Shown one piece after another: positions 9,399-41,101 of a DNA stretch of 49,128 bases; position 1 is the stretch's first letter, and each line of letters begins with the position of its first letter. Source of the stretch: a virus. The position numbers and the translations under genes were made by a program. The notes below the pieces were generated by a model. That model did not search any database, was not told where the DNA came from, and saw only the letters and a list, made by a program, of their open reading frames with translations. The stretch is taken from positions 1-49,128 of IMG/VR virus record IMGVR_UViG_3300027861_000044; one strand, 5' to 3'.

Positions 9399-9399
9399 C

Positions 9400-24451: not shown

Positions 24452-24461
24452 ATATAATCTC

Positions 24462-24863: not shown

Positions 24864-25405
24864 TTTTTAGCTTTCCTCTTTTCTATTTCTATTCTTTTGA
24901 ATAATATTTTTTGTGCAGCTTGGTAAATTTGTTTCTCAACTTTTGCTTTTTGCGCTTTCCATGTATCTGAAAAAAATGGGTCAGGCTCCACTCTATCGAC
25001 AATTTCGCCATCTTTTTCTTTTCTTATATAATGACCGTATTCAATCAAGTGTGCGTGAGGGGCTATGCTATATTGGACCTTAACGTAAGATATTTGCCTA
25101 CCCTTTCTTGCTCTTTTGGGTAATTTAGCGACTATACTTTCTTTAAGGCTTCCAGGTTGAGTCCAATCCCAAGACATAGCTCCAGATCTTCCAACATTAG
25201 CATCACTTATATTTTTCTTCCAATGACCCTTAGTGGCTATAGGTGCTCTGCCGCTCACTTTACCAGACAGTTCTTCTGCTATTTTAAGCAGCTCTTTTTT
25301 AAACATTTTCTTGTCGTATGTAGTGGCTATGGCTTTAAACATATCATTCAATTCTTCTAGGCCAACCAATTCAGCAAAATGTTTATGTCCAACTGGGATA
25401 CCCAC
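24860..25405 (-). CDS. HK97 gp10-like head-tail protein
   Basis: 181 aa with a helical N-terminus, R-A-P-I-A-T-K-G-H-W-K-K-N-I, then A-P-H-A-H-L-I-E-Y-G-H, the (H-x-x-x-x-E-x-G) motif typical of the HK97 gp10 family, and a basic C-terminus. Start shares a base with the upstream stop. Assists joining of head and tail. Confidence 0.82.
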   Translation of the reverse strand: MGIPVGHKHFAELVGLEELNDMFKAIATTYDKKMFKKELLKIAEELSGKVSGRAPIATKGHWKKNISDANVGRSGAMSWDWTQPGSLKESIVAKLPKRARKGRQISYVKVQYSIAPHAHLIEYGHYIRKEKDGEIVDRVEPDPFFSDTWKAQKAKVEKQIYQAAQKILFKRIEIEKRKAKK

Positions 25406-25740
25406 TATACACTCTCCCTACACATTAAGAGTAATTTTATATTGCGCTCATCTACGTTGATTACATTCTCTATAGTAAATATTCTATCGTTCCAGTTTAA
25501 CCTGCAATACCCTGGAGATATCTTTGTAGAGGCAGAGAGTGTGGTGTATCTTATCTCTATATTGTGTGTAACATTGGCTCTTATTTGCTCGGATTGGTAA
25601 TATTCGTTACCACGTAATGGTTTTATAGAAGCCCAAGCTGGAGTATCAGTAGTCCAAATTACAATTTCAGCACCGGTGGGACTCCTCTCTTTATATTTCT
25701 TCTCTATCATTATTTTGTGTCTTAGTATCCCAGCTTTCAT
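25405..25740 (-). CDS. Head-tail joining protein (HK97 gp7-like)
   Basis: 111 aa: a short beta-barrel opening G-I-L-R-H-K-I-M-I-E-K, then W-A-S-I-K-P-L-R-G-N-E and a closing strand pattern, as in the Phage_H_T_join family. In related phages it follows the gp6-like gene; here the gp6-like gene is 14.7 kb upstream, with the island between. The upstream neighbour ends only 3 bp away. Confidence 0.8.
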   Translation of the reverse strand: MKAGILRHKIMIEKKYKERSPTGAEIVIWTTDTPAWASIKPLRGNEYYQSEQIRANVTHNIEIRYTTLSASTKISPGYCRLNWNDRIFTIENVINVDERNIKLLLMCRESV

Positions 25741-25743
25741 ATT

Positions 25744-27357
25744 CTATATCCCAAATAATATTTTAAATGATTCTTTAAGTATGTCTTGGTTATTATCAAG
25801 GTAATTACTTACAGCAGTGTTCATTAAAGCTTCGTGTGTCTTCATCTCTTTTTGGAACAATGATTCCTTTTTGATATCGGAACCTACAATGATAGACTTT
25901 ATCTCATCTACGCTAGATTTTAAAGTTAGTCTATAATTATCTAATGCTATAGTTAACCTACTATCATTATATATCTCTTCTGCATTATTGATTTTGTAAT
26001 TTAGCTCATCTATATCATTAGTATACTCAAGTAAGCTTAGGTCTTTAAGATATCTACTTTTTATTGGAGTAGTAATATTGAGCCATGGTACACCACGCCT
26101 CATCATATCGTATACGGGGCCACTTGCATCTAGGTAAGTATAAGAGAAATTCATCAGAAGGTATAAATTGTTACCCTTGAATAACTCATTTATCTCATCA
26201 TTGTTTAGTGAGCCTCTATAGAGATCAGGACAAATTGTTTTGAATCCTTCATCACCATAAACATGAAACGGTTTATCGGTTTCTACATTCTCTATGATTT
26301 TATATTTCAGCCAATTAGCAAACGTGTAAAAGAATCCATGTAGAGAGCTATTCATATGAAATCTGTTAGTCTCAGAAAACCTTTCATCGGATAGTATTAT
26401 GGCTCTCATTGCCATGTACCAATTAATCAGATCCTCAAATATAGTTTCGGGAGGTAGAACACCTAGCATTTTATTTATTGTGCCCTGGAATTGCTCTACA
26501 TTGCTCAATCTACTGTTAGTCAATACAATTACATTGTAATCTTTCTTAAATTTCTTTACTTTCTTCTTCCTATAATCTTGCGGGATAGCGTTGTAAGTTA
26601 TATTCTTCAACTCATAAAACTCATCCAGATCATAGTTTAAACATTTCAAATTACAGAAATGGTTTCTCTTGTTGTTGTGCTGTATTACTTTTCTATAGAA
26701 CCCTTCTGCATTTAAATCATAGGGGTCATTATCTATTACTATGAACTCTACTCCCATATAACTAAGTAAAGTAGCAAGGTGTATATTATATGTCATCATG
26801 TAATAGTTTAAAAAATATTCGTTAACTGAAACTATCTTCTTAATATTGTTCTCTATTATAAACTTTTGAAGGTCTGATATGGATATCGGCTCAGGTCTTT
26901 CTTTCTCCCATTGCCTAGTTTTCCTATTGAATCCTAGATCCATATTAAGGTAGTGTACATCAACTTTCTTATTGTCTTTTAAAACATCATAAAATGACTT
27001 GTATCTTAAATCCTCTGAAACATTCACATATAAAACATTCTCATTATCTTCAGCTATATTATGATTATGCTCCAACGTTTTTATTGATTCATTGGTTTGC
27101 ATTAATACGCTATTGCAGTAATTTAGTGGTTTCTCTATATATGGATAGATATCTTCAGAACACGCAAATCCAAATTCTAATGGCATTAAATCAAAAAAAA
27201 CAGTACACTTGGAAAGTAACCAACATGCTACAAAAAACCAATTTTTCTCTATATCTTTCAGTGTTATGTTGGTTTCATGTTGAATTGCTTCCTCATCTGT
27301 TTTTATAATACATATCAGATTATTGTTGTCGTAAGCTATCTGTATTAAATTTTCCAT
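25744..27357 (-). CDS. Glycosyltransferase candidate (CgeB-like, GT-B)
   Basis: 537 aa. The C-terminal half follows the CgeB / GT4-like pattern: H-V-Y-G-D-E-G-F at ~380, Y-R-G-S-L-N-N-D-E-I-N-E-L-F at ~393, then Y-L-D-A-S-G-P-V-Y-D-M-M-R-R-G-V-P-W, where nucleotide-sugar binding and the S-G-x-x-x-D-x-M-x-x-G-x-P turn are expected. The N-terminal half would be the acceptor Rossmann-like domain. Preceded by a GGGGG ribosome site and by a terminator after the radical SAM gene. Could glycosylate virion proteins or host glycans. Donor unknown. Confidence 0.65.
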   Translation of the reverse strand: MENLIQIAYDNNNLICIIKTDEEAIQHETNITLKDIEKNWFFVACWLLSKCTVFFDLMPLEFGFACSEDIYPYIEKPLNYCNSVLMQTNESIKTLEHNHNIAEDNENVLYVNVSEDLRYKSFYDVLKDNKKVDVHYLNMDLGFNRKTRQWEKERPEPISISDLQKFIIENNIKKIVSVNEYFLNYYMMTYNIHLATLLSYMGVEFIVIDNDPYDLNAEGFYRKVIQHNNKRNHFCNLKCLNYDLDEFYELKNITYNAIPQDYRKKKVKKFKKDYNVIVLTNSRLSNVEQFQGTINKMLGVLPPETIFEDLINWYMAMRAIILSDERFSETNRFHMNSSLHGFFYTFANWLKYKIIENVETDKPFHVYGDEGFKTICPDLYRGSLNNDEINELFKGNNLYLLMNFSYTYLDASGPVYDMMRRGVPWLNITTPIKSRYLKDLSLLEYTNDIDELNYKINNAEEIYNDSRLTIALDNYRLTLKSSVDEIKSIIVGSDIKKESLFQKEMKTHEALMNTAVSNYLDNNQDILKESFKILFGI

Positions 27358-27388
27358 ATTCCCCCACCCTTTTAAGAAATTTTAAAAT

Positions 27389-27420
27389 AAAAAACCCCGC
27401 CAGCATTTGTTCTGACGAGG
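27389..27420 (-). terminator. Terminator after radical SAM gene 1
   Basis: Minus-strand stem CCUCGUCAG/CUGGCGGGG (two G-U pairs), 8-nt loop, then six U and more A/U. It separates the radical SAM gene from the glycosyltransferase gene and may limit read-through from the island into the tail genes. Confidence 0.8.
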
Positions 27421-27471
27421 CCTTGGTTATATCTTTAAATAAGGTCTACCCCTTATGTGTTGCATACTCCC

Positions 27472-28575
27472 TTATATGAAATTAACGTGCTCTGGTATAT
27501 CTGACTCCCTATGTGGCCATTCCATTGTTCCACCCTCTCTCATGTCCCACAAGTATTCATTGCATTTATGTTGTAAACATAATGTGCCGCACATTGTTCT
27601 AGCGTCAAACTTGTCTGATGCTATTAGACCCATTACCTCCCAGTATCTATCTGATTCCCACATTTCTTTAAAAGACTGTTCCGCTATATTTCCTATGTGA
27701 TACTTCTTATACTTTTCAGCAAATAGCATACCACATGGAGCTACTAGTCCAGATCCGCTAAACTGAGCTATGAGGGGAGGGCCATAACATCTACTGTATC
27801 GCCTCTTCCCCTCGCTCATTATTTTCGACCACTTAGCTGAAACTTGATAATCTTCCGTACTGAAACCCTCAGCATATTTCAATGTGTCAGTCAATGCTTC
27901 GTATTTTGAATAGTCTACGCCCAAGCTACCGTCTTCATCATCAGAACAATGCTTTATAACTAAATAATCAACTCCAAGGTGTCTTCCTAGTGCAGTCAAT
28001 GGTAGTACCTGATCCCCATATTGAGGCATCATGACCATTTGTAGGCCTATTGTGACCGGTAGCCCCATTTTCTTCTTTAATGCTACTGACGACCGTATAT
28101 TAGCTATTACACGTTTAAATTCAACGTCACCTACGCCATGGATTTCCTTGTATCTGTCAAGATGTCCGGCAGATATGTTGAATCTCAAGTATGTCAGCTT
28201 GGGCATTATGATTTCAAGCTGTTCCGGAGTAAGGAGATACCCATTCGTGCCCAATGCCATGTCTATTCCGTTTGACTTGCCCCTTAAGATAGCGTTTGTG
28301 AGGTGTGGAGAGCATGTCGATTCTCCATCACTTACAAAGCTTATGCCTTTAACTCCTATTTCAGCAGAGTCATCTAGGAAGCGATATATAACATCTTGTG
28401 TTATTTTTTGGGCATCGTTATCCTGGAGCGTAGCATAACAAAATTGGCAATTAAAACTACAGGATCTAGTTAAAGCGCAATCTATAGTGATTGGTGCTAC
28501 TCTCTCGCCAGCCAACCAAGCATCTACCCTATCTTTGTGCCATGCTAATTTATGGCCATCAAGTATTAATGTCAT
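27472..28575 (-). CDS. Radical SAM enzyme 1 with SPASM-like tail
   Basis: 367 aa. The radical SAM cluster C-S-F-N-C-Q-F-C (CX3CX2C) is at ~38-45; then S-D-G-E-S (the G-G-E equivalent) and G-T-N-G-Y. The C-terminal region has the SPASM pattern: A-P-C-G-M-L, G-N-I, W, then T-M-C-G-T-L-C-L-Q-H-K-C, room for a second Fe-S cluster. N-terminal H-K-L-A-W-H-K-D-R-V and the last residues H-V-N-F-I are shared with the enzyme at 31189. The ATG overlaps the preceding stop (ATGA). SPASM enzymes modify peptides or small molecules; substrate unknown. Confidence 0.85.
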   Translation of the reverse strand: MTLILDGHKLAWHKDRVDAWLAGERVAPITIDCALTRSCSFNCQFCYATLQDNDAQKITQDVIYRFLDDSAEIGVKGISFVSDGESTCSPHLTNAILRGKSNGIDMALGTNGYLLTPEQLEIIMPKLTYLRFNISAGHLDRYKEIHGVGDVEFKRVIANIRSSVALKKKMGLPVTIGLQMVMMPQYGDQVLPLTALGRHLGVDYLVIKHCSDDEDGSLGVDYSKYEALTDTLKYAEGFSTEDYQVSAKWSKIMSEGKRRYSRCYGPPLIAQFSGSGLVAPCGMLFAEKYKKYHIGNIAEQSFKEMWESDRYWEVMGLIASDKFDARTMCGTLCLQHKCNEYLWDMREGGTMEWPHRESDIPEHVNFI

Positions 28576-28817
28576 AATTCCATTATCCCCTCATAACCAT
28601 CTGGTACTTCAGTCGGTATTTTTAATGGACCCATCCAGTGAGAGAAAAAGTCTACTTCAAATTCATTCCCAGGATGAAATCTAGTGAATAATTTGGGGGT
28701 TCCATCGAATCTAACTAAGAATAGATCTGCCTCTCCAGGTTCCAAATTCTCAATAGCCCAATACCAACCTTTTTCAGTTGGGACTTCAGTAGTCCAATCT
28801 TCTTTACGATAGCACAT
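28572..28817 (-). CDS. Small W-rich protein, 81 aa
   Basis: Contains P-T-E-K-G-W-Y-W-A and F-S-H-W-M-G-P-L. The G-W-Y-W-A segment is frequent in small phage and host proteins (DUF551-like). Overlaps the radical SAM start by 4 bp and the previous stop by one base, so it is tightly coupled in the island operon. Function unknown. Confidence 0.75.
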   Translation of the reverse strand: MCYRKEDWTTEVPTEKGWYWAIENLEPGEADLFLVRFDGTPKLFTRFHPGNEFEVDFFSHWMGPLKIPTEVPDGYEGIMEL

Positions 28818-29053
28818 TATCCCCTCCTAGCTTTTTCTATCTCTTCTTTAGTGACCTCAATTGAATGATCCCATGTATATCTGAAATAAATACAATTACC
28901 AACATTTAAATCACATGGTTGGTTTGTAAAAAAAGTTGTTACTGGTGAATGCCAACATTTTTTTGTAACTATATTAGATGGATGCCAACATGCTACATTT
29001 GAATTAATATCATGGCCAAAAAATTTACACTCACTGCAAAATGTATCAGACAT
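28817..29053 (-). CDS. Cys-rich mini-protein A, 78 aa
   Basis: C-S-E-C near the N-terminus, then A-C-W-H-P-S-N, K-C-W-H and, near the end, N-C-I-Y-F. The CxxC...C...C...C-x-x-F layout matches the 29053 gene and the 11181 gene. Probable zinc or Fe-S binding. AGGAGGGG before the next gene and stop-start overlaps indicate coupling. Confidence 0.8.
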   Translation of the reverse strand: MSDTFCSECKFFGHDINSNVACWHPSNIVTKKCWHSPVTTFFTNQPCDLNVGNCIYFRYTWDHSIEVTKEEIEKARRG

Positions 29054-29307
29054 TATCCCCTAACTCCCCCTCTTTTCTCAAAGCTTGGTCTGAAGTGTGA
29101 GCAATCATTATGTTTGTTTATTTCAAATGCTTCGTTCATGCAATGAACGTTGGTACCCTTCTTTAACCATGTATCAGGTCTTTGGGTTATTTTCATATTG
29201 GATTTATGAACACACGCTGATTTGACTCCCTTACTTTGGCCTCTATACCAAAAACAACCAGCACAATACACCTTACCTCTAAAAAAATTCTTTATTCTAT
29301 CAAACAT
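29053..29307 (-). CDS. Cys-rich mini-protein B, 84 aa
   Basis: The frame can begin at 29334, but a GAGGGGG run five bases before ATG 29307 makes that start (M-F-D-R-I-K-N-F-F) more likely. Pattern: C-A-G-C-F-W-Y, A-C-V-H-K-S-N, H-C-M-N-E, D-C-S-H-F-R-P. Paralogue of mini-protein A, end to end with it. Its basic amphipathic N-terminus may touch membranes. Function unknown. Confidence 0.8.
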   Translation of the reverse strand: MFDRIKNFFRGKVYCAGCFWYRGQSKGVKSACVHKSNMKITQRPDTWLKKGTNVHCMNEAFEINKHNDCSHFRPSFEKRGGVRG

Positions 29308-29722
29308 TATTACCCCCTCTCTTTGATATAGCATTTTCTAATTTAGAAAGAAGATTGACAACAGACTCATCTCCAACTGGAACTAGGTCTATCTCGCCAC
29401 CAGACACCTTCTGCACTGGTATGCCTAGCAAAGTGTCATGCCGTGTCTTGAGTAGGCTCGCTTGCCACATATATCTATAATTATCTCCAAATGTGCGAAA
29501 CTGACGCATTGCGCAATAGATATTCTCGCCTACTTGAAAAACATATTCTTTATCCATATAACTTTTTTTAGTAACGTAATCCATATATAAATTTAAGACA
29601 TTCTCCCTTTCTTTCTTGTATGCCCAATTAGACATCTCCCTTTCAATGTTTGATTTTAGATACCTAATCTCATCATATAAATCGCTGAATATGTTAAACA
29701 CGTATATACCCCGCCTTTTCAC
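29300..29722 (-). CDS. Hypothetical protein, 140 aa
   Basis: Begins inside the end of the transketolase C-half gene (29-bp overlap). A GTG a few codons later (V-F-N-I-F) is an alternative start. Helical N-terminal half, then R-Q-F-R-T-F-G-D-N-Y-R-Y-M-W and I-D-L-V-P-V-G. No family recognised. Its coupling to the transketolase genes suggests a shared pathway. Confidence 0.75.
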   Translation of the reverse strand: MKRRGIYVFNIFSDLYDEIRYLKSNIEREMSNWAYKKERENVLNLYMDYVTKKSYMDKEYVFQVGENIYCAMRQFRTFGDNYRYMWQASLLKTRHDTLLGIPVQKVSGGEIDLVPVGDESVVNLLSKLENAISKRGGNNV

Positions 29723-30287
29723 TCATCATGAAATCATTAACTAGTTTTACCCACCTATCTTCTTTATCCGCATCTGACTCTTCAAAATCTTCAATATCTA
29801 TATGCCACATGGTGTCCATGTCCATTAGGATGTTATTCTTTAGACAAAATTTATCGAATAGCTCGTATTTAGTTGGATTAACGTACGGATCAGATACATC
29901 TAATCCTATTATGTCAAAGATCTTTTTATCATCCTTGTCACATGTGTGTGATGGGCCTAGGAAATCGAAATAGTTTTCTGCGCCAGTGCCTATGAATTTA
30001 ACATTTAGGCCATGAAGGAGTACATCGTTTCTAATTTGCTCTAAAGCTCGGAAGCAAAGAAAGTTCCCTATGGTGTATATTATGGGGATCTTACCGGTCA
30101 TAGCCGCTCCTGCGCCAATACCGACTATCCCTTGCTCCATTATACCGCCATTCGTGAAACGATCAGGGAACATGCTAATAAATTCATCTATAGCCCCAAA
30201 CCCCATATCACAACAAATGAGATGATACCTATCGTCTGTTTCAAAATATGGAATCAATTCGTTGATTATTTCCTTTCTATAATCCAC
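29694..30287 (-). CDS. Transketolase C-half (pyrimidine-binding domain only)
   Basis: 197 aa, GTG start. The pyrimidine-domain motifs are present: G-G-I-M-E-Q (catalytic Glu for TPP activation), N-F-L-C-F-R-A-L-E-Q-I-R-N-D, and F-L-G-P-S-H-T. The usual C-terminal transketolase domain (~110 residues) is missing; after ~160 residues the protein ends. It should pair with the N-half at 30445 to form a TPP enzyme moving two-carbon units between sugars, or a related synthase. The GTG overlaps the stop of the 53-aa gene by one base. Confidence 0.88.
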   Translation of the reverse strand: MDYRKEIINELIPYFETDDRYHLICCDMGFGAIDEFISMFPDRFTNGGIMEQGIVGIGAGAAMTGKIPIIYTIGNFLCFRALEQIRNDVLLHGLNVKFIGTGAENYFDFLGPSHTCDKDDKKIFDIIGLDVSDPYVNPTKYELFDKFCLKNNILMDMDTMWHIDIEDFEESDADKEDRWVKLVNDFMMSEKAGYIRV

Positions 30288-30448
30288 TACTTCCCCCTCT
30301 TCTTGATCTGCTCTCGTTTTAATCTTATCCTGGATTGCACATCTTTATCCGGTCCACGTCCACATTTTTCACACAAAACATAAACTACCTTATTATCGGA
30401 ATGATCAGCGCATGTGGCATCTCTTGTCTCGCATATAAAGCATTTCAT
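30287..30448 (-). CDS. Zinc-finger mini-protein between transketolase halves, 53 aa
   Basis: Starts at ATG overlapping the N-half stop (ATGA) and ends overlapping the C-half GTG by one base. Contains C-F-I-C, T-C-A-D-H and C-E-K-C-G-R-G, a four-Cys zinc finger with additional Cys/His, and a strongly basic C-terminus (R-L-K-R-E-Q-I-K-K-R). The double overlap is good evidence that it is a real gene. Confidence 0.75.
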   Translation of the reverse strand: MKCFICETRDATCADHSDNKVVYVLCEKCGRGPDKDVQSRIRLKREQIKKRGK

Positions 30449-31179
30449 TGTAGCTTCAACTCTTCTTCTGTTGGTAAACGATAATGGAAATAAGCTTTAC
30501 CTTCTGCACATTTAAGCCCCTTTCCTTTTATAGTGTCGAAATTTAAAACAAGTGGTTCATCATCAACACCATAAGATAATACTTCCTTAATTTTATTTAA
30601 ATTATGTCCATCTAGATCATCAATAGCATCAAGCATCTCTATATGATCATAATCCATAATATTAGATGTTTTATCCATAGCTTGTAATTTATTGTCATCT
30701 ATTATAACAACCAAATTATTTAATTTATGAGTTAGAGAAAATTGAATAGCCTCCCATGTTGAACCTTCCTGGCATTCCCCATCTCCCAAAAGGCAAAAAA
30801 CCCTTCCCTCTTTCCCTTGTAACTTTAATCCCCATGATATACCCACAGCTATCGGCAACCCATGCCCTAGAGATCCACATCCTGCTTCTATAATAGGCTT
30901 ACCATCCTTATCTACCATCCTCTCTGAGCATCCGGACAGGTTGAAGTTCTCCCAATCATCTTTAGGTATTAAACCTTTATCAGCTAATATAGCATAAAGA
31001 CCATAACATCCATGAGATTTAGATAGTATAAAGTGATCTTCAGGTTTCATGACATCGTAGTATAAGGCAGTTAGTATGTCCACACATGAGAGTGATGGAG
31101 CTATGTGGCCAGCTTTGTTTTTAACTGCAACCCTTATTACGTCCTCTCTTATCTGGTCAGCTTTCTTTTGTAGATCCAT
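30445..31179 (-). CDS. Transketolase N-half (TPP-binding domain)
   Basis: 244 aa. Substrate and cofactor motifs: A-G-H-I-A-P-S-L-S (His for phosphate/substrate), S-K-S-H-G-C, G-S-L-G-H-G-L-P, and the TPP/Mg motif G-D-G-E-C-Q-E-G-S-T-W-E-A ... I-D-D-N. Length fits stand-alone N-half subunits. Behind a GGGGGGG run. With the C-half it forms a split transketolase, as in some secondary-metabolite and sugar clusters. Both halves appear intact at their active sites. Confidence 0.9.
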   Translation of the reverse strand: MDLQKKADQIREDVIRVAVKNKAGHIAPSLSCVDILTALYYDVMKPEDHFILSKSHGCYGLYAILADKGLIPKDDWENFNLSGCSERMVDKDGKPIIEAGCGSLGHGLPIAVGISWGLKLQGKEGRVFCLLGDGECQEGSTWEAIQFSLTHKLNNLVVIIDDNKLQAMDKTSNIMDYDHIEMLDAIDDLDGHNLNKIKEVLSYGVDDEPLVLNFDTIKGKGLKCAEGKAYFHYRLPTEEELKLQ

Positions 31180-31188
31180 ACTCCCCCC

Positions 31189-32268
31189 CTAAATAAAGTT
31201 AACATGATCATTTGGGTTCCTTAACTCCCAAAGATATCTGTTGCACTCATCCATCCTGCAATTTACACGACACTTACCGCAATTCATAGTGTTCTCTACC
31301 CACTTGAGGTTCTTAGCTCTTTTCTCTCCGTTCCATATATCTTCAAAGCATTCTTCGTATATATTGCCATAGTTGAAGTTAAATGTCTCCCTGCCTAGAT
31401 GAGCAGAGCATCCCCAGACATTACCACCAGCATCCATGTAAGACCAAAATGGAAGACCAAAGCATTTACTATATTCTCTTTGTTTTTTATTCCACTTGTT
31501 AATGGTGTGCGATCTGTAGATAACCTCGAAATCATCATCATTTAAATCCGAATCGAGAAGAATAGATCTCAAATTTCTAAGATCAGTGTATTTTATTTTC
31601 TCATATTTGTTAGTTTTACTCATTGTATGTTGTGAATATGGTTTTATAACAAAATAATCGGCACCGCACTCTTTCACTGTCTCAGCTAATAGGAGCATTT
31701 CATGTTCGTTTTCGGGCAAAAGGATAGATTGAACACCTATGGCACAATCCAAACCTTCCTCCTTTCTAAGTTTACATGCATGCTCTATATTGAATATAAC
31801 CTTATCAAAATCAGCAGGGCTTGTTTTATGTATATCCTTGTATAGCCCATTTGAACCAGCATTAACGCTGAATTTTACCCATTTTAAATGTGGGAGCACT
31901 AATCTAGACATCATTTTACCAAATTCAACACCGTTAGATGTCATGGCAACGTCTATTCCTCTATTTTTAGTGTGTTGAATTATATCAGCTATATATGGAT
32001 GAAGTAGGGGTTCACCTTCTCCGGCATACATTATACTTTTAACTCCAAGTGTCGCCAATTCGGAGACAGTTACTTTCAGTTGAGCAGTATCCAAGAATCT
32101 CTTCTCGTACTCCATGTAATCTAAAGCGCAGAATGTGCATCTATGATTGCATTGCCCAGACGGTGATATTTCCATGTAGATTGGGTATACCGTTTCACCA
32201 TTAAGCCAAGGCTGAACTCTGTCTGGATGATACATTAGCTTGTGACTATCTATATGATATTTGTCCAT
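31189..32268 (-). CDS. Radical SAM enzyme 2 with SPASM-like tail
   Basis: 359 aa. C-N-H-R-C-T-F-C (CX3CX2C) at ~40-47, G-E-G-E-P, T-S-N-G-V. The C-terminus has W-G-C-S-A-H, Y-G-N-I, I-W-N-G and then N-C-G-K-C-R-V-N-C-R-M-D-E-C, the SPASM-type second cluster. N-terminal H-K-L-M-Y-H-P-D-R-V-Q-P-W-L and the end D-H-V-N-F-I are shared with radical SAM 1. GGGGG ribosome site. Ends 10 bp before the transketolase N-half start, suggesting a joint pathway. Confidence 0.88.
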   Translation of the reverse strand: MDKYHIDSHKLMYHPDRVQPWLNGETVYPIYMEISPSGQCNHRCTFCALDYMEYEKRFLDTAQLKVTVSELATLGVKSIMYAGEGEPLLHPYIADIIQHTKNRGIDVAMTSNGVEFGKMMSRLVLPHLKWVKFSVNAGSNGLYKDIHKTSPADFDKVIFNIEHACKLRKEEGLDCAIGVQSILLPENEHEMLLLAETVKECGADYFVIKPYSQHTMSKTNKYEKIKYTDLRNLRSILLDSDLNDDDFEVIYRSHTINKWNKKQREYSKCFGLPFWSYMDAGGNVWGCSAHLGRETFNFNYGNIYEECFEDIWNGEKRAKNLKWVENTMNCGKCRVNCRMDECNRYLWELRNPNDHVNFI

Positions 32269-32279
32269 TTATCCCCCTT

Positions 32280-32483
32280 TCATTGAACTGTTCTAATCCA
32301 TATCTTTAAATCCTCAATAGGATTCTCACATCTGTAAGACCATTTTGCATGATCTTCCTTTATCTTAGATATTATATTTTCTATCCCATCATTCTTGGTA
32401 ACATATACATTACTTTCAACGCCGCACATACTACACTCGTACTCTATCAAATACAATTGACCCCCTCTATTTCCACGCTGCAA
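32280..32483 (-). CDS. Zinc-finger mini-protein, up to 67 aa
   Basis: Contains Y-E-C-S-M-C-G-V-E near the start and Y-R-C-E-N-P later. It overlaps the end of radical SAM 3 by 37 bp when begun at ATG 32483, but an alternative TTG start about eight codons on lies five bases from a GGGGG run at the overlapping stop and may be the real one (~59 aa). Function unknown. Confidence 0.6.
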   Translation of the reverse strand: MQRGNRGGQLYLIEYECSMCGVESNVYVTKNDGIENIISKIKEDHAKWSYRCENPIEDLKIWIRTVQ

Positions 32484-33301
32484 GTTCCGAATTCTTCAAA
32501 TCTATCGTTCTTAATTTTAATATCACAGGGGTTGCAATGGCCATACTCACTACATGTTCTAAAGCAAAAATGTATATCGGGCTTTTCATCAGTGATATGC
32601 GCTACTGGATTAATACAGCCATACAGATCAGAATGGCACCTATGTATATACCCACTAGGACTTATCAGCAACTCTGTGGTTTTACAATAAACGTCTTCCG
32701 TTTCTTTCTTGAAAAGTCCATCATATTTATAATGCCCCCACAAGACATCCTGGTACACACCCAGAAACTCTTTAGTCCTAAAATCTATATCGTATTTTTG
32801 GCAATAATCAATTATAGGTTGAATAGTTATAGATGGGTGCTCTACAGTGAAAAGGCCTATATCAAACCCAGCATCTTGTAAATACTTCACTTTATTAACT
32901 ACGCTTACAAGGTTATTCTGCTCAGGATGATAAGAAACTCTTATACTAGCATAAGGAACGTCTCTTGTCAACCTATTTGGATCAACTCTCTCAGCAAACT
33001 CTTTTACGTCAAAATCTAGATTGGTTAGAATGTCAATATAGAAGTCATCTTTTAAGCCGTTTATCACATCTATGAATCCGCTATACTTAGAAGGCTCACC
33101 ACCCTGAAGAGTGATGGGCACCTTCTTGTCTTTACTGAGCTGTAGTCTATTAATCCCTTCTATCCATTCCTCTGCTGACATCTCTTTCCTGCGCTTAAAG
33201 TCTCCGCACCTATTGATACAATATGAACAATTATATCCACATCTAAAGCTCAAGAAAACCGCAAAATAAGTTAATTCGTCAGGCAACACAAATGATTTCA
33301 T
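32447..33301 (-). CDS. Radical SAM enzyme 3
   Basis: 284 aa. C-G-Y-N-C-S-Y-C at ~21-28, Q-G-G-E-P-S (the G-G-E motif), L-T-N-L-D. The C-terminal region has many Cys: H-R-C-H-S-D, F-C-F-R-T-C-S-E-Y-G-H-C-N-P-C-D, probably binding extra Fe-S. Shorter than the other two and lacks their N-terminal H-K-L motif, but ends G-V-N-C-I, close to their V-N-F-I. Preceded by a run of nine G. Substrate unknown. Confidence 0.85.
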   Translation of the reverse strand: MKSFVLPDELTYFAVFLSFRCGYNCSYCINRCGDFKRRKEMSAEEWIEGINRLQLSKDKKVPITLQGGEPSKYSGFIDVINGLKDDFYIDILTNLDFDVKEFAERVDPNRLTRDVPYASIRVSYHPEQNNLVSVVNKVKYLQDAGFDIGLFTVEHPSITIQPIIDYCQKYDIDFRTKEFLGVYQDVLWGHYKYDGLFKKETEDVYCKTTELLISPSGYIHRCHSDLYGCINPVAHITDEKPDIHFCFRTCSEYGHCNPCDIKIKNDRFEEFGTCSVEIEGVNCI

Positions 33302-33313
33302 AATTCCCCCCCC

Positions 33314-36300
33314 CTATCTAAATCTAAAATTGAATGGAGCTGGCGGTGCTGTATCTTTTTCAAAAGCACCTATATCATATACGCCACCTTGTGGCCTACC
33401 AACTTCATCATGACCTAATCTTATATCTATACCATACAGGCTTTGAAACAGCCCATAGGTGAAATGTGAATCATTTTCATTTATTGCTGGAGATCCAGTT
33501 TGAAGCACAAAGTTTGTAGTCCCTAAAAACAACGGATCTGCTGGAGAGGGGCAATTTGTACATTCATTAGTGGCAACCTTCCATTCTGAATAAGATGAAT
33601 AGCGTGTGCCATTCCAAAAGAAATCTTCATCTCCATTAGAAAACAACATATAATCAATATTTAAATTGTCAGAATCGTAATCACTTATATACGCATTGTT
33701 AGTTCTAGTTTTAAGATCACCGCATATGTTACCACTTAATTCAACGGATCTATCTGTTCCAGAATCGTTACCATAGAATTGTACCATATCATCCATGGTA
33801 TTGTCAATAACATATAAATTACCGTAATCAGCAGCAGCATAGAACACTATACCGGTTCCTTGGTCAGAAGGCTCACCAGTAAATGCATTATCATTATCTT
33901 CTATATCCCAGATCTTGTTACCCATCAAGTAAGTATTGTATCCATCTGCACCAGATAATGTAGCTGATTGTCTGTAAAAGAAATTACAGTCATAAACTGT
34001 GTTAAATATTATCCACAATCTATCAGCACCATATTGCATTCCGAACGCATCACCTAATCCAGAATTGCCATGTTTTCTCATGTTATAGATAGTGTTTTGT
34101 GAAAATATTACATCCTGGCACACTTTGGCCCATAGTCCAGCCTGTCTACCTTGTGATATATTATTCCTACCAGCATAAATATGATTACAATATTGTTTAT
34201 ATTGAGGATCTTCTACCGCTGTGACCTGCATAGCATTGCCAGATATTCGCGTAAACGTGTTATCTAATACCCATACATTGTATGTTTCTAAGGAATTTTG
34301 CCATTCGCCTCTAGGCTGTATGCCATGAAAATCTTCATCTTCTGTGGTTTGCCAATCACCGAGAGAATCAAATATGTTGTTATAGATCACTATATCATGA
34401 GTGTAGCCTTCACCAGTACCTAGATCAGCGTCTATACCTATGCCTGAAGCATTGTGCGCCCAATCGTAATTTCTTATCCAAGAATTTCTGATGGAAATAA
34501 ATGAACAACCACCTTCTATTTTAAGTGCGCCCTCAGTATAGGTCGAGTTACCATTGAAGTCTATCTCTTCCATATAGACATAATCACAATCTCTTAATTC
34601 GTAATCACCTCTTATTATCGGCTCACTACCATCAATGCCTACTATCCATACCGGCTCTCCAGCCGTACCCTTCCAATCAGTGAATGTTCTTCCAGCCGAT
34701 GTATCGGTACCATGAAGCTCTACATAACTACCATCATCTAAGGTGTTAGGTATCGTGGCCCTTGGATTTGATGGGGTACCATAGGTGTTGCCAGTATCAT
34801 TACCAGTTTCAAAATTTATATAATAAAAATCTACCTGTTCTGTTGTCCATGGATCTAGCCTATCAGGTGTGACTGTATCTATTGGGTCTATGGTCCAAAC
34901 TAATCCTGGATCTGGGATACCTATTGGAGCTTCAAAGTCTCCCTCTGGTATTATATCCTTATCGAATGTATAGGCAGTTGACCCAACTATTCCCTTGTTG
35001 CTTGCTAGGTCATATGATACGGCATTTAATATTATAGTCTGGCCATTATCACCATCTATTAGTACAGATCCACCAAAGTATTGGATATCTGTACTGTCTG
35101 GCTGGCTACCATTAGTCGTATAGTAAGTAGTATTAGCATCAGATGCTTCATTTATTACAACATTTTGAGCTATAGCATATGTTCCAGTGCTAGGTGTAAA
35201 TGTTGGAGCATCTGGACCAACCGTATCCATAATAAAGGTGTATATTGCTATACCAATGGCTCCAAACCCAACATGCTCTCGGAAGGATATAGCTTTTAAT
35301 GTTACTACCTCACCGTCAGTACCAGATATTGGGATAGTTCCTCCATAATATATAGTATCAGAACTACCAGGATCAGTTCCATCAGTAGTGTACCATGTAA
35401 TTTGAGCATCAACATCTGGAATTATAGTTACATTTTGGGCAGATGTATAATTGCCTCCTACTGGATCAAAGGTGGGAGCATCTGGTACTTCTGGTGCATC
35501 ATAAAAAGAATATGTTGCAGCTCCAGTTATACCTTTACCATATTCATTGTATGAAACAGCTTTAAGCGTAACGAATTCGCCATCTGTACCGTTAACAGCT
35601 ATAGTTCCACTAATATATTCAGCATCAGCATTATTAGGATCAGTTCCATCTGTAGTATAGTAAGTGTTATCTGCATCAATATCTGGAATTATTGTAACAT
35701 CTTGTTGCCCAGTGTAACTTCCAGTATCAGGACTGAATGTAGGTGCATCTGGTGTGAGAATAGGAAGATCAAATGTATATATAGCAGACCCAACAACCCC
35801 TTTGCCTAGCTCATTATAAGATACAGCTCTGAGAGTTATGGTTTGACCATCAGTTCCACTTATAGATATAGTACCACCAATATATTCAGTATCAGTATTA
35901 TCTGGTTGACTTCCATCAGTAGTGTAATAAGTATTATCCGCACTAGCTGCTGGAGTTATTAAAACATCCTGCGCCTCATTGTAAGTTCCAGTCCCAGGAG
36001 AAAAAGTTGGTGCTGATGGTGCTGTATCAGTAACACCGGTGTATTCAAATGCACCCATATCCCAATTAGCACCTTGATATCTACTGACTTCGTTGAAGTC
36101 AACCCTTATATCAATGCCGTACCGATCATAAAAAGTTTGATAAACATCATGTTCTATATTAGCATCTATAGCAGGAGATAATTCCTGTAATGTAAAATCA
36201 TCAGAATCAATATCAGTAAAAAGTGGATCTGCATCAATACAATCATCGCAATTATTAGTAGCAGCAAAGAAAGAACCTAAGTCATTATATATCGACCCGC

Positions 36301-39300
36301 CCCAACTAACTCTCATACCATGTGTTTCATCATAAAGTACGTTGTAATTAGCTAAACTTCTAGAAGCTAAATCGCCTGGAATATGAAATTGATAATCATT
36401 GTCTCTGATTTCAGATATAATGTTACCTTTTATTATATATGCACCAGCACCAGGATTACTAGCTATACCTCTATTAACATTATATATAGTATTATCTATT
36501 ATATATTTAGTCATATTGTCAGAAGTACAAGCAAATCCGCAACCAGGGCTATAATCTTCACTTTGGTTATAAGTAGAATTATATTCCAAACAATCATATA
36601 TTTTATTACCTATAATATAAGCGTCCCAAGCATTGGCTCCGGCATTTGTGCTAGACTGCCTTATGCCGTACTGGTTATCATATGTTTTATTATATAAAAA
36701 CCACAATCTATTAGTGCCGTATTGCCAGCCTAAACCAGTTCCAGGTTGTGGCCCGTGTGTTCTTCCTCCAAATGCCGTATTTTGACTAAAGATAACATCG
36801 GTCGAAGATTTCGCCCAAAAAGATGCTTGCCTGTTATAGCTACCTATATTATTACCAACATAAACATTATGACAGAATGGAGCGTCTGCGGGTTGAGTTC
36901 TTCCAGTTACCTGAACACCATTCCCGCTTATATGATAGAACGTACTATTTAATACCCATATATTATAAGTATAACAAGATTCTGATGGGTTGCCTCCAGG
37001 TTGAAATCCATGAAAATCTGGGTCATCTGATCCCGTATAATCCCACTCACCTAATTCTTCAAAATTACAATTATAAAGTATTATATCGTGACAATCATTA
37101 TTATCAGAATATATAGCTTTAGGACTTATACCCATTCCAGATGCGTTACCCGCATATAAATAATTTCTAAAATTAGAATTTCTGACACAGATATAGTCTG
37201 CCCCTTGAATGACAATCCCACCCTTAGTGAACGTATTGTTGCCATTGAAATCTATATTTTCTATTATAACATAATCGGCATTCCTTATTACAGTGTTGCC
37301 TCTTATTACTCCTTTATTGTCAGAGGATTGTCCTCTTATCCAAATAGGATTATCGGCAGTTCCGCTCCAACCACCCATATATCTTTCGACTGATCCGTCA
37401 TCAATGCCATGAACTTCAACGTATGCTCCAGCGGATAGGGTTCCTGGAATTGTAGCTCTAGGTGCTGATGGTGTTCCGTATGTTCTGCCTGTATCAGTAC
37501 CACTAGTAAAATCTATATAATAATAGCCAGCCTGTTCTGTAGTCCAAGGATTAGGCCTTGCTGGAGCATCACTGGTGATAGGATGTGTAGTTCCCCATAA
37601 ACCTGGGTCCGGAATACCTATTGGTGGAGTGTAATCCGTAACTGGTGGATCTGTTTTGTCAAATGTATACACAACAGATCCTATATCACCTTTATTGCCA
37701 GCAGTGTCATAAGATACAGCTCTCACTGTGATAACTTCCGTATCACTCCCATCCACTGTAAAAGCACCGGTATATAATGTATTAGTATTGTCTGGATCTG
37801 TCCCATTGGAAGTATAATATGTAGCTGATGCATCTACCGGTTCGTTCACAACAACGCTCTGGGCAGTATTGTAAGTGCCAGTGCTAGGTGTAAATGTTGG
37901 AGCATCTGGACCAGTTAAATCGAAAGTGTATAAAGCTGATCCAACACTTCCTCTACCAACTTCATTATATGACACAGCTTTTAGTGCCACCATTATGCCA
38001 TCTCCACCACTTATACCTATAGTTCCACCAATATATTCAGTATCAGTATTATCAGGCTCAGATCCGTCTGTAGTATAGTATGTGTTATCAGCACCACTAT
38101 CCAATGTTAATTGAACATTCTGTGGTAAATTATATTCTCCAGTATCTGGATTAAATGTTGGTACTATTGGAGTTGTTGGTTCAGGTGATCCAGTAAAGAA
38201 TTCATTAATATATTCTTCAAGATTCACATACCCATCCCCATTTCTATCTGTAAATGCGTCTGATGAATCATTGGGATTTAGGCTTCTGGCTGTCTCCCAA
38301 CTATCTGGCATACCATCATTATCCGTATCATTTGGGTAGGTGCCGGAAGCTATAGTTGGATACCCACCCACTGAAGCTGGATCACTGATATGTGCTCCTG
38401 TACCGTTTTGAACATCCAAAACGACCCTTAAATCAACAGAATCTCTAGACGGTACTATGGCACCAGAACTACCAAGAATTATACTTAAAATATCATCGGA
38501 AGAATCGGTGCTAATTCCAGATGGAGTAAATTGCATAGATGAACTAAAATTAGGCGTATAGTCAACTCTAAATGCTGCTATCTCTGGATATGATGAATCT
38601 GGCCTACCATAACCTATGTTATCTAACCCGTAAACCCTTGATGCAGGAAGTACATCGTGTCCCGATCTTAATCCATTAGCGTTCTGTATATATAATGGGG
38701 TATTGGTACCGTTTATTTGATAATTACCAATAGCATGAGAGAATTGGGGTTGATCATTGGAGTTTTGCCCATGGCCAGAGTATCTTATAGCGAACCACCC
38801 TGGGTTATACATTACATTGTTAATGACTTCTGTTGGAGATGCAGCATTTAAGTATGTTTGTATATTGTTACCACCACCTATGAGTGGATTTCTATCATCA
38901 TTATGAGCAAATAAGTTATGATGACAGCTAATATAAGAGTTGCCTGGACCAAACAATACTGACATACCATGTGGCAATAATGCTTCGCTAAATATATTCC
39001 ATGAATATGTTATATTATTGGCTGCAAACCAAATAGTGGAAGTTTCGTCTCTAGACCAACTCATGGAATTATGATCAAGTATTATATTGTAAGGTTCATT
39101 CGAGCTACTTTCTATGCCTAAACAATCATTATTGCCATTGTTTACATTATTTAAACCTATACGTATACGTAAACCACGTATTATTACATTATTAGTTCTG
39201 ACTCTGATGCCATAATCTCTTATTAATATACCACCGCCTGGGGCTGTTTGACCAGCTATGGTTACATATGGATTATTTATTGATATTTCAGAATCCAAAT

Positions 39301-39547
39301 CTATAGTACCACCAGTTTTGAACACTATTATTCTATTACCACCAGAACAAGCTTCCCTTAAACTGCCAGATCCACTATTATTAGTATTAGTGACAAATAC
39401 TACATTGCCACTATTACGACCACCTATAGTATCAGATCCCCAACCCTCCGCTCCTGGAAACGCAGGAAGGGCATTGACTGATATAGGTGCAAACAAGCAA
39501 CTAAAAAATATAATAATAAATATCAAAATTGTCTGGATTTGTTTCAT
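33314..39547 (-). CDS. Giant secreted pectate-lyase / chitobiase-repeat protein
   Basis: 2077 aa. Signal peptide ending near V-N-A (residue ~26). Residues ~27-400: PL1-type pectate lyase beta-helix (F-P-G-A-E-G-W-G, I-A-G-Q-T-A-P-G-G-G). ~403-450: Ca-binding T-D-N-D-G-M-P-D-S-W and R-N-G-D-G-Y. Two chitobiase C-terminal-like repeats (~460-630; Y-Y-T-T-D-G-S-E-P-D-N), a second beta-helix (~640-1165), four more repeats (~1170-1535), and a third beta-helix (~1540-2060) duplicating the second. Ends F-N-F-R-F-R. Likely exported to the cell surface, or a depolymerase; an exported protein in a virion operon is odd. No transmembrane anchor seen. Confidence 0.88.
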   Translation of the reverse strand: MKQIQTILIFIIIFFSCLFAPISVNALPAFPGAEGWGSDTIGGRNSGNVVFVTNTNNSGSGSLREACSGGNRIIVFKTGGTIDLDSEISINNPYVTIAGQTAPGGGILIRDYGIRVRTNNVIIRGLRIRIGLNNVNNGNNDCLGIESSSNEPYNIILDHNSMSWSRDETSTIWFAANNITYSWNIFSEALLPHGMSVLFGPGNSYISCHHNLFAHNDDRNPLIGGGNNIQTYLNAASPTEVINNVMYNPGWFAIRYSGHGQNSNDQPQFSHAIGNYQINGTNTPLYIQNANGLRSGHDVLPASRVYGLDNIGYGRPDSSYPEIAAFRVDYTPNFSSSMQFTPSGISTDSSDDILSIILGSSGAIVPSRDSVDLRVVLDVQNGTGAHISDPASVGGYPTIASGTYPNDTDNDGMPDSWETARSLNPNDSSDAFTDRNGDGYVNLEEYINEFFTGSPEPTTPIVPTFNPDTGEYNLPQNVQLTLDSGADNTYYTTDGSEPDNTDTEYIGGTIGISGGDGIMVALKAVSYNEVGRGSVGSALYTFDLTGPDAPTFTPSTGTYNTAQSVVVNEPVDASATYYTSNGTDPDNTNTLYTGAFTVDGSDTEVITVRAVSYDTAGNKGDIGSVVYTFDKTDPPVTDYTPPIGIPDPGLWGTTHPITSDAPARPNPWTTEQAGYYYIDFTSGTDTGRTYGTPSAPRATIPGTLSAGAYVEVHGIDDGSVERYMGGWSGTADNPIWIRGQSSDNKGVIRGNTVIRNADYVIIENIDFNGNNTFTKGGIVIQGADYICVRNSNFRNYLYAGNASGMGISPKAIYSDNNDCHDIILYNCNFEELGEWDYTGSDDPDFHGFQPGGNPSESCYTYNIWVLNSTFYHISGNGVQVTGRTQPADAPFCHNVYVGNNIGSYNRQASFWAKSSTDVIFSQNTAFGGRTHGPQPGTGLGWQYGTNRLWFLYNKTYDNQYGIRQSSTNAGANAWDAYIIGNKIYDCLEYNSTYNQSEDYSPGCGFACTSDNMTKYIIDNTIYNVNRGIASNPGAGAYIIKGNIISEIRDNDYQFHIPGDLASRSLANYNVLYDETHGMRVSWGGSIYNDLGSFFAATNNCDDCIDADPLFTDIDSDDFTLQELSPAIDANIEHDVYQTFYDRYGIDIRVDFNEVSRYQGANWDMGAFEYTGVTDTAPSAPTFSPGTGTYNEAQDVLITPAASADNTYYTTDGSQPDNTDTEYIGGTISISGTDGQTITLRAVSYNELGKGVVGSAIYTFDLPILTPDAPTFSPDTGSYTGQQDVTIIPDIDADNTYYTTDGTDPNNADAEYISGTIAVNGTDGEFVTLKAVSYNEYGKGITGAATYSFYDAPEVPDAPTFDPVGGNYTSAQNVTIIPDVDAQITWYTTDGTDPGSSDTIYYGGTIPISGTDGEVVTLKAISFREHVGFGAIGIAIYTFIMDTVGPDAPTFTPSTGTYAIAQNVVINEASDANTTYYTTNGSQPDSTDIQYFGGSVLIDGDNGQTIILNAVSYDLASNKGIVGSTAYTFDKDIIPEGDFEAPIGIPDPGLVWTIDPIDTVTPDRLDPWTTEQVDFYYINFETGNDTGNTYGTPSNPRATIPNTLDDGSYVELHGTDTSAGRTFTDWKGTAGEPVWIVGIDGSEPIIRGDYELRDCDYVYMEEIDFNGNSTYTEGALKIEGGCSFISIRNSWIRNYDWAHNASGIGIDADLGTGEGYTHDIVIYNNIFDSLGDWQTTEDEDFHGIQPRGEWQNSLETYNVWVLDNTFTRISGNAMQVTAVEDPQYKQYCNHIYAGRNNISQGRQAGLWAKVCQDVIFSQNTIYNMRKHGNSGLGDAFGMQYGADRLWIIFNTVYDCNFFYRQSATLSGADGYNTYLMGNKIWDIEDNDNAFTGEPSDQGTGIVFYAAADYGNLYVIDNTMDDMVQFYGNDSGTDRSVELSGNICGDLKTRTNNAYISDYDSDNLNIDYMLFSNGDEDFFWNGTRYSSYSEWKVATNECTNCPSPADPLFLGTTNFVLQTGSPAINENDSHFTYGLFQSLYGIDIRLGHDEVGRPQGGVYDIGAFEKDTAPPAPFNFRFR

Positions 39548-39552
39548 ATTTT

Positions 39553-40476
39553 CTACTTATCTAATATAGATTCCACAGTTTCAAAAACCAATTTAGGTTC
39601 TATGGTGTTCATGCACGACTGCTCTTTACAACATTCAGTATATAAACAAGGTACACAGTCGCTTTCAGCTATCAACATTTTACTATTGCCATACATATAA
39701 ACTTCAGTATTAGATGTGGGGCCAAATAAGCCTACTGCATCGACTCCGTATCCCATAGCAAGGTGTAGCCCTAAGCTATCACATGTAACTATCAACTCGC
39801 ATCTATTTATCCATTCAATGTATTCATTTAAATCTTTTGCCCCTTGCTGAACTCCAATGGAATATCCGTTTTTAACTAATAGCCCACCAAGTGTCTTCCA
39901 ATGTGATTTAGGCCAAGACTTATTATTCCATTTACCACCTACTTTAAAGTTAATGCCTACATCGTATTTTTTTCTAATATTACCTATAGGAGGTACAATG
40001 TAACGTTCTCCAGCCCAAGACATGCCTATTATTTCAAAGAGCACATCCTGCCATGTTCGGTCAGCTTCTCTTTTTCTATCTAAGCTATTATACACATAAT
40101 ACGCTTCATGATTGTTTTTATATGGCTTAACTGTTCCATCTTTTGAATCAAATCTAAATCCATATTTACTCCATGCATTTATCTGATCTGCCAAAGCACA
40201 TATACCAGGAACTTTTTCCAAATTGATAACAATATCATACTGTTCTTGCTGTAGTTGCAATATAGAATTTATATTATATATAAGTATCCTATCTAAATAA
40301 TTTATCCCATGAAGCAAGGGATATGCTTTCTCATCAGTTAACCATGTAACATGATCATTAGAAAAACAATGTAATATTGGTGTTGTCCTTACTATATCCC
40401 CCAAACTACACTCATCGCTGATTCCAGGATCTAATGTTTCAGAATGACCAGTTTTGATTATTAAAATTTTTGACAT
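39553..40476 (-). CDS. Heptosyltransferase-like glycosyltransferase (GT9)
   Basis: 307 aa from ATG 40476 (M-S-K-I-L-I-I-K), which lies behind GGAGGGGG; the ATG at 40488 is in the ribosome site itself. N-terminal S-L-G-D-I-V-R-T-T-P-I is the GT9 signature. The C-terminal half has N-N-K-S-W-P-K-S-H-W, C-D-S-L-G-L-H-L-A-M-G-Y-G and V-G-L-F-G-P-T-S, the GT9 donor-binding pattern, then a Cys-rich end. GT9 enzymes transfer heptose or similar to LPS core. Acts here either on host surface glycan or on a virion glycan. Last gene of the island, 7 bp from the connector gene. Confidence 0.85.
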   Translation of the reverse strand: MSKILIIKTGHSETLDPGISDECSLGDIVRTTPILHCFSNDHVTWLTDEKAYPLLHGINYLDRILIYNINSILQLQQEQYDIVINLEKVPGICALADQINAWSKYGFRFDSKDGTVKPYKNNHEAYYVYNSLDRKREADRTWQDVLFEIIGMSWAGERYIVPPIGNIRKKYDVGINFKVGGKWNNKSWPKSHWKTLGGLLVKNGYSIGVQQGAKDLNEYIEWINRCELIVTCDSLGLHLAMGYGVDAVGLFGPTSNTEVYMYGNSKMLIAESDCVPCLYTECCKEQSCMNTIEPKLVFETVESILDK

Positions 40477-40495
40477 ATCCCCCTCCATGTTTATA

Positions 40496-41101
40496 TTAAA
40501 ATCTATTATCGAACACCTTATATGGAGACAATAAGAATTCTGAACCCTGTGGTATTTTCAACAAACCACCGGACTGGAATGTTGTTATAGTATCTTCTCT
40601 ATTTTCATACCAATGCCCAATCATCAACACCATAGCGTGTCTAATTGGAGCAGGTACACTTGTAGAGTTGTCACCATACCCAGCAACATATTCTATTCTT
40701 ATTGGATTAACGTTATGTAATGTTTCTGAGGGCCATTGCTCGTTGTAATCAATGTAAATTCTAGGTGTAGCACTAGCTGAATCAGTCTTGAAAATAGTTG
40801 ACCCTATCGTAATAGAGCTGCTATCGGTATCTTTATAGGTTATAATAGGAGCAGTGCCAGTAGAAAGAGGTGAATTGGATAGTTGAAAATGTTCACATGG
40901 CCAATTGTCGTAATATTCATACCATGTTTGATTGACAAATCTTCTTCCTGTTATATTCTCAGCTTGTAATGTGGCAGCATCAATAAGACTATCGAAAAGA
41001 AGATCTTCATCAGTATTCCCAACATCAAGTCTTAGTTGACGCTTCACATCTTCTTTATTTAAAGGCTTGAATAAAGAAGATGTTTTTAATTGTCTTTTCA
41101 T
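40496..41101 (-). CDS. Head-tail connector (HK97 gp6-like)
   Basis: 201 aa. N-terminal V-K-R-Q-L-R-L-D with D-E-D-L-L-F-D-S-L-I-D-A-A-T, helical core of the gp6/QLRG connector family; later R-I-E-Y-V-A-G-Y-G and P-A-P-I-R-H-A-M-V-L-M-I-G-H-W-Y-E-N-R-E, both hallmarks. It adapts the portal to the tail. Normally followed by the gp7-like gene, here displaced by the island. The upstream gene ends right beside its start. Confidence 0.85.
   Translation of the reverse strand: MKRQLKTSSLFKPLNKEDVKRQLRLDVGNTDEDLLFDSLIDAATLQAENITGRRFVNQTWYEYYDNWPCEHFQLSNSPLSTGTAPIITYKDTDSSSITIGSTIFKTDSASATPRIYIDYNEQWPSETLHNVNPIRIEYVAGYGDNSTSVPAPIRHAMVLMIGHWYENREDTITTFQSGGLLKIPQGSEFLLSPYKVFDNRF

Follow-up and report, generated by a model that had tools for sequence, protein, structure and literature searches.

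A putative sugar-biosynthesis island with radical SAM and two-subunit thiamine pyrophosphate enzymes between the neck genes of an uncultivated phage

Results

The window analysed here is the IMG/VR virus record IMGVR_UViG_3300027861_000044, a linear contig of 49,128 b that is covered over its whole length and is incomplete. Fourteen open reading frames (ORFs) on the minus strand (25744-40488), in the following called the island, lie between the gene of a gp6-like head-tail adaptor on the right (40496..41101; PF05135 2.3e-7 over cut-off, phrog_442 4e-19) and that of an Hc1/gp7-like head completion protein on the left (25405..25740; PF05521 6e-20, phrog_25). Both border genes, and all features of the island, are on the minus strand. 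The Hc1 gene is followed by the genes for a gp10-like protein, a tail terminator and the major tail protein (23711..25405, minus strand; Pfam and PHROG profiles), so that the order of the neck and tail genes is that of HK97. In HK97, however, gp6 and gp7 overlap by 1 bp, whereas here the island interrupts their adjacency. The intergenic spacing within the island is -37 to +12 nt apart from a single 114-nt gap, which separates rsam3 from the gene of a 537-aa protein (see below). The original prediction, which had been made from the letters of this DNA, was thus right about the two borders with 14 same-strand genes inside, and also about the adjacency of gp6 and gp7 in HK97.

Three of the island genes code for radical S-adenosylmethionine (SAM) enzymes, as had been predicted: rSAM1 (31189..32268, 359 aa; PF04055 and PF13186 over cut-off), rSAM2 (32447..33301, 284 aa; PF04055 over cut-off) and rSAM3 (27472..28575, 367 aa; Radical_SAM and PF13186 over cut-off). 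The CxxxCxxC motif is intact in all three proteins and its cysteines are invariant in alignments with the relatives. rSAM1 and rSAM3 are radical SAM/SPASM proteins and paralogues of each other (27% identity, C-terminal HVNFI common to both), unlike rSAM2, which gave no match to the SPASM profile PF13186. The identity to cellular orthologues is 42-48% for rSAM1, rSAM2 is 44% identical to a Nanoarchaeota protein, and rSAM3 reaches 60-66% with phage or cellular relatives. In a fold comparison of the rSAM3 model (predicted local distance difference test score, pLDDT, 87.8) the top six matches were DesII, a radical SAM sugar ammonia-lyase (best match PDB 8hzv, 18% identity, TM ~0.64-0.71), with peptide maturases next; the best PDB profile match of rSAM1 was BlsE. 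These resemblances are hints as to the substrate, not proof.

Two further genes code for a split transketolase-type enzyme. TKN (30445..31179, 244 aa) is the subunit binding thiamine pyrophosphate (TPP), that is the PP subunit (PF00456 and PF13292 over cut-off, GDG...N intact), and TKC (29694..30287, 197 aa) the PYR subunit (PF02779 over cut-off, catalytic Glu motif GIMEQ in the alignment, PDB match 6yaj). Both halves of a transketolase had been predicted here, which holds for the PP and PYR subunits, but the small subunit consists of the PYR domain only: the C-terminal domain of transketolase is absent from TKC and, judging from the alignment, likewise from its counterparts in the relatives L010, L038, L087 and L042. 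TPP enzymes hold their cofactor between the PP and PYR domains. TKN and TKC could therefore still transfer a C2 unit. The split transketolase of Carboxydothermus hydrogenoformans (PDB 6yaj/6yak), the best PDB match of TKC, has PP and PYR on two chains too, but its C-terminal chain comprises 341 aa and the phage protein lacks the C-terminal domain.

The gene next to gp6 codes for a heptosyltransferase-like enzyme of family GT9 (39553..40488, 311 aa; PF01075, Glyco_transf_9, 1.9e-15 over cut-off; PDB 3tov), in agreement with the prediction. It is followed by the gene of a 2077-aa secreted beta-helix protein (33314..39547), predicted as a secreted glycan-active protein, in which a signal peptide, called by eye as a Sec signal, was found together with a PelZ/pectate-lyase-like N-terminal domain, CHB_HEX_C_1/Fn3_assoc repeats and a choice-of-anchor Q match. 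The PelZ-like domain is also present in isolated Cellulophaga phages. At the other end of the island the 537-aa protein (25744..27357) had been taken for a CgeB-like glycosyltransferase. This assignment found no backing: the protein gave no Pfam, NCBIfam or PHROG match and its model (pLDDT 47) was too poor for a fold test, so that its family is unproven.

The original prediction had proposed a search with the island proteins as a group, and this showed that the set also occurs elsewhere, in many phages and in cellular polysaccharide loci. Single-protein viral scans were nearly empty (rSAM1 and gp6 gave nothing, the 537-aa protein only the contig L004, and a genome scan with rSAM1 alone nothing), so that profile scans were needed. 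These detected rSAM3 on 24 viral contigs and rSAM1 on 15; after merging of duplicates and together with the window, L009, L010, MW202801.1 and LR756501.1 these contigs make up 36 phage or phage-like loci. Homology in this count was assigned by hidden Markov models (HMMs) built from few seeds. Neighbouring genes in the relatives were often read by eye from the translations, and those relied on were mostly checked by hmmscan or with few-seed HMMs. A two-subunit TPP enzyme lies nearby in 21/36 loci (transketolase-type in 7, E1-type in 13, both in 1), an HldE-like gene in 18, an epimerase gene in 16, a GmhA-like gene in 11 and a DegT gene in 9. Since terminase was matched on 17/26 contigs, with about 12 strong matches, most contigs bearing the set are phages.

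The placement of the set differs between the phages. It adjoins terminase in L118, L119 and L147, the last of which carries rSAM1-rSAM2 next to a gene of the GT9 family, and in the complete phage genome MW202801.1 it follows the capsid gene. In L011 a sugar island with a split transketolase but none of these radical SAM genes is found between a capsid gene and a gp10-like gene; islands of this kind in L014, L017 and L012 have a sheath, protease or terminase gene nearby. Sugar islands adjoining virion genes are seen in MW202801.1, L005/L011, L014, L017, L118/L119 and G004. In the last of these (61 kb; L018-L020) a NeuB/NeuA-type nonulosonic acid set follows an SU10-type major capsid gene, and about 20-30 kb off lies a second, separate cluster of rSAM1, TKN, TKC and an HldE-like gene with a beta-helix lipoprotein (by eye). 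An Hc1 gene had been called by eye in G004 as well, but Pfam did not confirm it, and searches of the related contigs with PF05521 and phrog_40 found Hc1 in L004 alone. A 735-kb uncultured phage record (LR756501.1; L008, ~7436-9654) holds three consecutive genes, PYR-type TPP, rSAM1-like and PP-type TPP, surrounded by those of glycosyltransferases and methyltransferases. The contigs L123, L124, L130 and L121 combine rSAM1, rSAM3, rSAM2 and a TPP pair with a conserved protein of 127-145 aa (GDLIDKLSIL..KI).

The closest cellular match is a contig of a Nitrospira metagenome-assembled genome (L038) with the order DegT-epimerase-DegT-TKN-TKC-rSAM3-HldE-like, and L087 has HldE-like-rSAM1-TKN-TKC-rSAM-GT2-rSAM3, TKC being PYR-only in both. 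A Nanoarchaeota contig (L042) carries TKN-TKC-rSAM1 plus an E1-type TPP pair and rSAM2. Contigs of Chlorobium and Rhodospirillaceae resemble these three, and some add a GmhA-like SIS protein. The order rSAM1-TKN-TKC(PYR only)-rSAM3, with orthologous genes, occurs in the cellular polysaccharide loci L087 and L084, and the cellular loci with the set also hold genes for a sugar kinase/nucleotidyltransferase, an isomerase, an epimerase and glycosyltransferases. Because the orthologues often co-locate with GmhA-like and HldE-like enzymes a heptose-type sugar is indicated. The cultured bacterium Azospirillum oryzae has rSAM3 at 61.6% identity on a plasmid, in a locus annotated with SDR, PfkB, SIS, E1 alpha/beta and DegT, and Solidesulfovibrio pDCAR1 combines pseC and the gene of an MptE-like protein with radical SAM genes. 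The rSAM3 tree does not separate phage from cell sequences, and this mixing forces at least 3 changes. PYR-only TKC was found with rSAM genes in 11/25 against 0/37 cellular loci (Fisher p 9e-6), counts that are not independent of relatedness; since the loci share ancestry we did not use this value as proof. On the tree the association of PYR-only TKC with rSAM genes comes down to only 2 supported independent pairs, for which a sign test is without power.

The junction of the island with the tail genes recurs in independent contigs. L004, from a different metagenome, repeats the order rSAM3, 537-aa protein, Hc1, gp10, tail terminator and major tail protein, and the more distant phage L010 has TKN-TKC, a methyltransferase-like protein of 397 aa, rSAM3 and a protein of 523 aa, followed directly by gp10, tail terminator, major tail protein and tape measure protein. 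The 537-aa protein is 86% identical to its counterpart in L004 and 37% to that in L010. A misassembly, which had been named as a refutation, is thereby rejected for the tail side. The junction between gp6 and the GT9 gene has no second witness, as the single-protein viral scan with gp6 gave no relative. In a codon comparison of the window with L004 rSAM3 has an omega of 0.05; the 537-aa protein, whose dS is near saturation, has one of about 0.03. These values are as low as that of the major tail protein (0.033).

An intrinsic terminator (27391..27424, minus strand) lies in the 114-nt gap, the one long gap of the island, and has a counterpart at the same site in L004. There two base pairs are changed on both sides, in a compensatory manner, and others on one side only. 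The terminator is therefore probably real, and the purifying selection together with the compensatory changes argues that the island genes are maintained and not decaying. Judging from its position, transcription of the biosynthetic block would stop here, leaving the 537-aa gene grouped with Hc1 and the tail genes. The 537-aa gene might then be expressed by read-through or from its own promoter.

The remaining ORFs of the island are small: one of 67 aa (32280..32483), which is not conserved in the relatives, a Cys-rich one of 53 aa (30287..30448), and four of 140, 93, 78 and 81 aa (28572..29722), two of the four being Cys-rich, without relatives in the loci compared. Terminase, portal and major capsid genes were not recognised on the incomplete contig, and the scanned ORFs 5' of gp6 (125, 131, 127, 1499 and 750+ aa) had no head-gene match. 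In the 1499-aa protein (41981-46480, minus strand) an [IL]HQ[HQ][IV]-type motif is repeated about 30 times, mostly at a spacing of exactly 22 residues, C-terminal to a beta-helix-like N-terminus; Pfam gave no match and PHROG only a weak one to a tape-measure family. The protein of 750+ aa (46874-49126, minus strand), cut by the contig end, has a 7-bladed beta-propeller (Lactonase) profile and occupies the site where HK97-like phages would carry capsid or portal genes. Close to the 5' end of the gp6-like gene there is a palindrome of 17 pairs (41046-41083), terminator-like when read on the plus strand, and on the strand opposite to the island a 313-aa protein with PKD-type domains is encoded (7509-8450, plus strand). 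The window gave no Rfam match, and no tRNA was found.

Discussion

With the target left aside, we regard it as very probable that the island is a module for the synthesis and transfer of a sugar. The fuller statement, namely that this module was captured from cells, is kept in a late head-neck-tail operon and has a virion protein as its target, is our preferred reading, to which we give a probability of roughly 0.4. The original prediction had proposed a pathway for an unusual sugar that is attached either to the virion or to the host surface. Such a pathway fits well with the orthologues of rSAM1, rSAM3 and the split transketolase, which stand together with their order preserved in cellular polysaccharide loci; on the other hand, the CgeB-like enzyme is unproven, the transketolase lacks one of its three domains and DNA may be a third target.

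In such a pathway TKN and TKC would move a two-carbon unit to give a ketose phosphate or a C2-extended or branched sugar, which the radical SAM enzymes might then tailor. GmhA-like and HldE-like enzymes, as present in the relatives, would isomerise and activate this sugar by a heptose-type route and would here be supplied by the host or by the missing part of the genome, and the GT9 enzyme, perhaps together with the unassigned 537-aa protein, would transfer it in the cytoplasm. That a phosphorylated sugar is isomerised, activated and transferred is suggested by the co-location of epimerase, DegT, GmhA-like, HldE-like and GT9 genes. In more general terms, rSAM1, rSAM2 and rSAM3 with a two-subunit TPP enzyme may form a distinct mobile pathway of phages, bacteria and DPANN archaea, in which transketolase-type and E1-type pairs are interchangeable, which makes a new C2-extended or branched sugar activated like a heptose, and with which phages decorate virions or other components; we put this forward tentatively, at somewhat less than even odds.

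As target we rank a virion protein of the same operon first, a host-surface glycan second as a less likely choice, and the secreted 2077-aa protein and, on a par with it, DNA or something else as improbable. Late expression and a virion target are favoured by the location within the assembly operon, the island sitting in the run of neck and tail genes and mostly overlapping within it. Several observations weigh against this. The terminator lies between the biosynthetic block on one side and the tail genes with the 537-aa gene on the other, and the 2077-aa protein bears a signal peptide, unlike virion proteins. The virion-linked placement is not general, as the radical SAM set in L123/L124/L130 adjoins replication genes, among them that of DNA polymerase in L123/L124; the contigs G018, G019 and G023 with replication-linked sets gave no GT2 or GT9 match. 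Searches with few-seed HMMs found no GmhA-like or HldE-like genes on this incomplete contig. The likeness of rSAM3 to DesII is distant with 18% identity, and peptide-modifying enzymes follow in the fold ranking.

The same module could instead put its sugar on the host surface during infection, on lipopolysaccharide (LPS) or another envelope glycan, and so block superinfection or the re-adsorption of progeny to debris, with the 2077-aa protein acting there too. We consider this unlikely, though it is the best of the alternatives. The secreted 2077-aa protein and the LPS-type enzyme families argue for a surface target, as GT9 is the family of the LPS heptosyltransferases and the cellular orthologues sit in surface-polysaccharide loci; moreover the rfaE, glycosyltransferase and radical SAM cassettes of pelagimyophages were interpreted by their authors as modifying the host O-chain (PMC7029224). 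The Pfam matches of the island, however, include no membrane flippase, polymerase, ligase or gtr-type genes, and the placement in an assembly operon suggests an expression that would be late for superinfection exclusion.

Closer to the genes themselves, the GT9 enzyme might glycosylate the secreted beta-helix protein of its own operon while the rest of the island makes the donor. The GT9 gene lies directly upstream of the 2077-aa gene, 5 nt apart, and TibC sets a precedent of a heptosyltransferase family modifying such proteins in the cytoplasm (PMC4358343). Yet no autotransporter barrel is among the Pfam matches of the 2077-aa protein and the related GT9 gene of L147 has no such neighbour, which makes this an improbable explanation. 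We hold it for still less probable that the product hypermodifies bases of the phage DNA, although the replication-linked sets in other phages leave some room for it: rSAM1-rSAM3-rSAM2 and a TPP pair adjoin replication genes in L123/L124, a similar set occurs in L121 and L130, and virus-encoded glycosyltransferases hypermodifying DNA have been reported (Pyle et al. 2024, cited in PMC12619734). The cellular orthologues, however, lie in polysaccharide loci without DNA-modification genes, and the set of the window is found in the neck-tail region, no base-modification family being seen in the incomplete window. A role of the radical SAM/SPASM enzymes in maturing the island's small Cys-rich peptides, in the manner of ribosomally synthesised and post-translationally modified peptides and with the sugar genes incidental, has very little to recommend it: SPASM enzymes often act on peptides and there are several small Cys-rich ORFs in the stretch from TKN to rSAM3, but these ORFs have no relatives in any other rSAM1/rSAM3 locus, whereas TPP, HldE-like and epimerase genes recur. 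Least probable of all is an assembly artefact joining two sequences, since for all the lack of an independent witness on the gp6 side the tail-side junction is reproduced in L004 and L010 from other metagenomes and coding selection spans it.

Should the preferred reading be true, a radical SAM/TPP sugar pathway without a known product would be common to phages, bacteria and archaea, and in one phage lineage this pathway would have entered the assembly operon and been retained there under purifying selection. The combination of radical SAM and thiamine chemistry on a single sugar would be novel in enzymology. The plasmid locus of the cultured Azospirillum oryzae makes part of the pathway testable now, and decoration of the virion, a change of the host surface and modification of the DNA can be distinguished by mass spectrometry. 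The island is also a concrete case for why sugar genes often adjoin head and tail genes in uncultivated phages.

Glycosylation islands and sugar cassettes of phages are already known, including those with radical SAM and rfaE genes in pelagimyophages and the virion glycans of mycobacteriophages. We found no published description of the rSAM-TPP module or of its placement between gp6 and gp7 in a search that was thin on subscription journals. The serotype-conversion gtr cassette consists of a GtrA flippase, a GtrB bactoprenol glucosyltransferase and a membrane Gtr protein, none of which has a Pfam match in the island. With the ADP-heptose route (GmhA, HldE) there are in common the GT9 enzyme of the island and the GmhA-like and HldE-like genes that adjoin the module in the relatives; that route involves neither radical SAM enzymes nor a two-subunit TPP enzyme nor DegT aminotransferases, and GmhA and HldE are not on this contig. 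The TibC and Aah heptosyltransferase genes likewise lie directly upstream of the gene of a secreted beta-helix protein (PMC4358343), but the acceptors TibA and AIDA-I are autotransporters, whereas the 2077-aa protein has no autotransporter profile in Pfam. The mycobacteriophages Che8 and Rita encode glycosyltransferases which are thought or shown to decorate capsid or tail proteins (Freeman et al. 2023, cited in PMC11256854 and PMC12619734). In the excerpted account of mycobacteriophage Maravista the glycosyltransferase genes lie near the 3' end of the genome, whereas here a biosynthetic island, known from its genes alone, lies between gp6 and gp7; the excerpts on virion glycosylation in mycobacteriophages mention neither radical SAM nor TPP enzymes, both of which the island has. 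The cassettes of the pelagimyophages are found in hypervariable tail-fibre regions of T4-like phages and are described without the rSAM1/2/3-TPP set, but they likewise bring together phage-borne genes for sugar activation, glycosyltransferases and radical SAM enzymes (PMC7029224).

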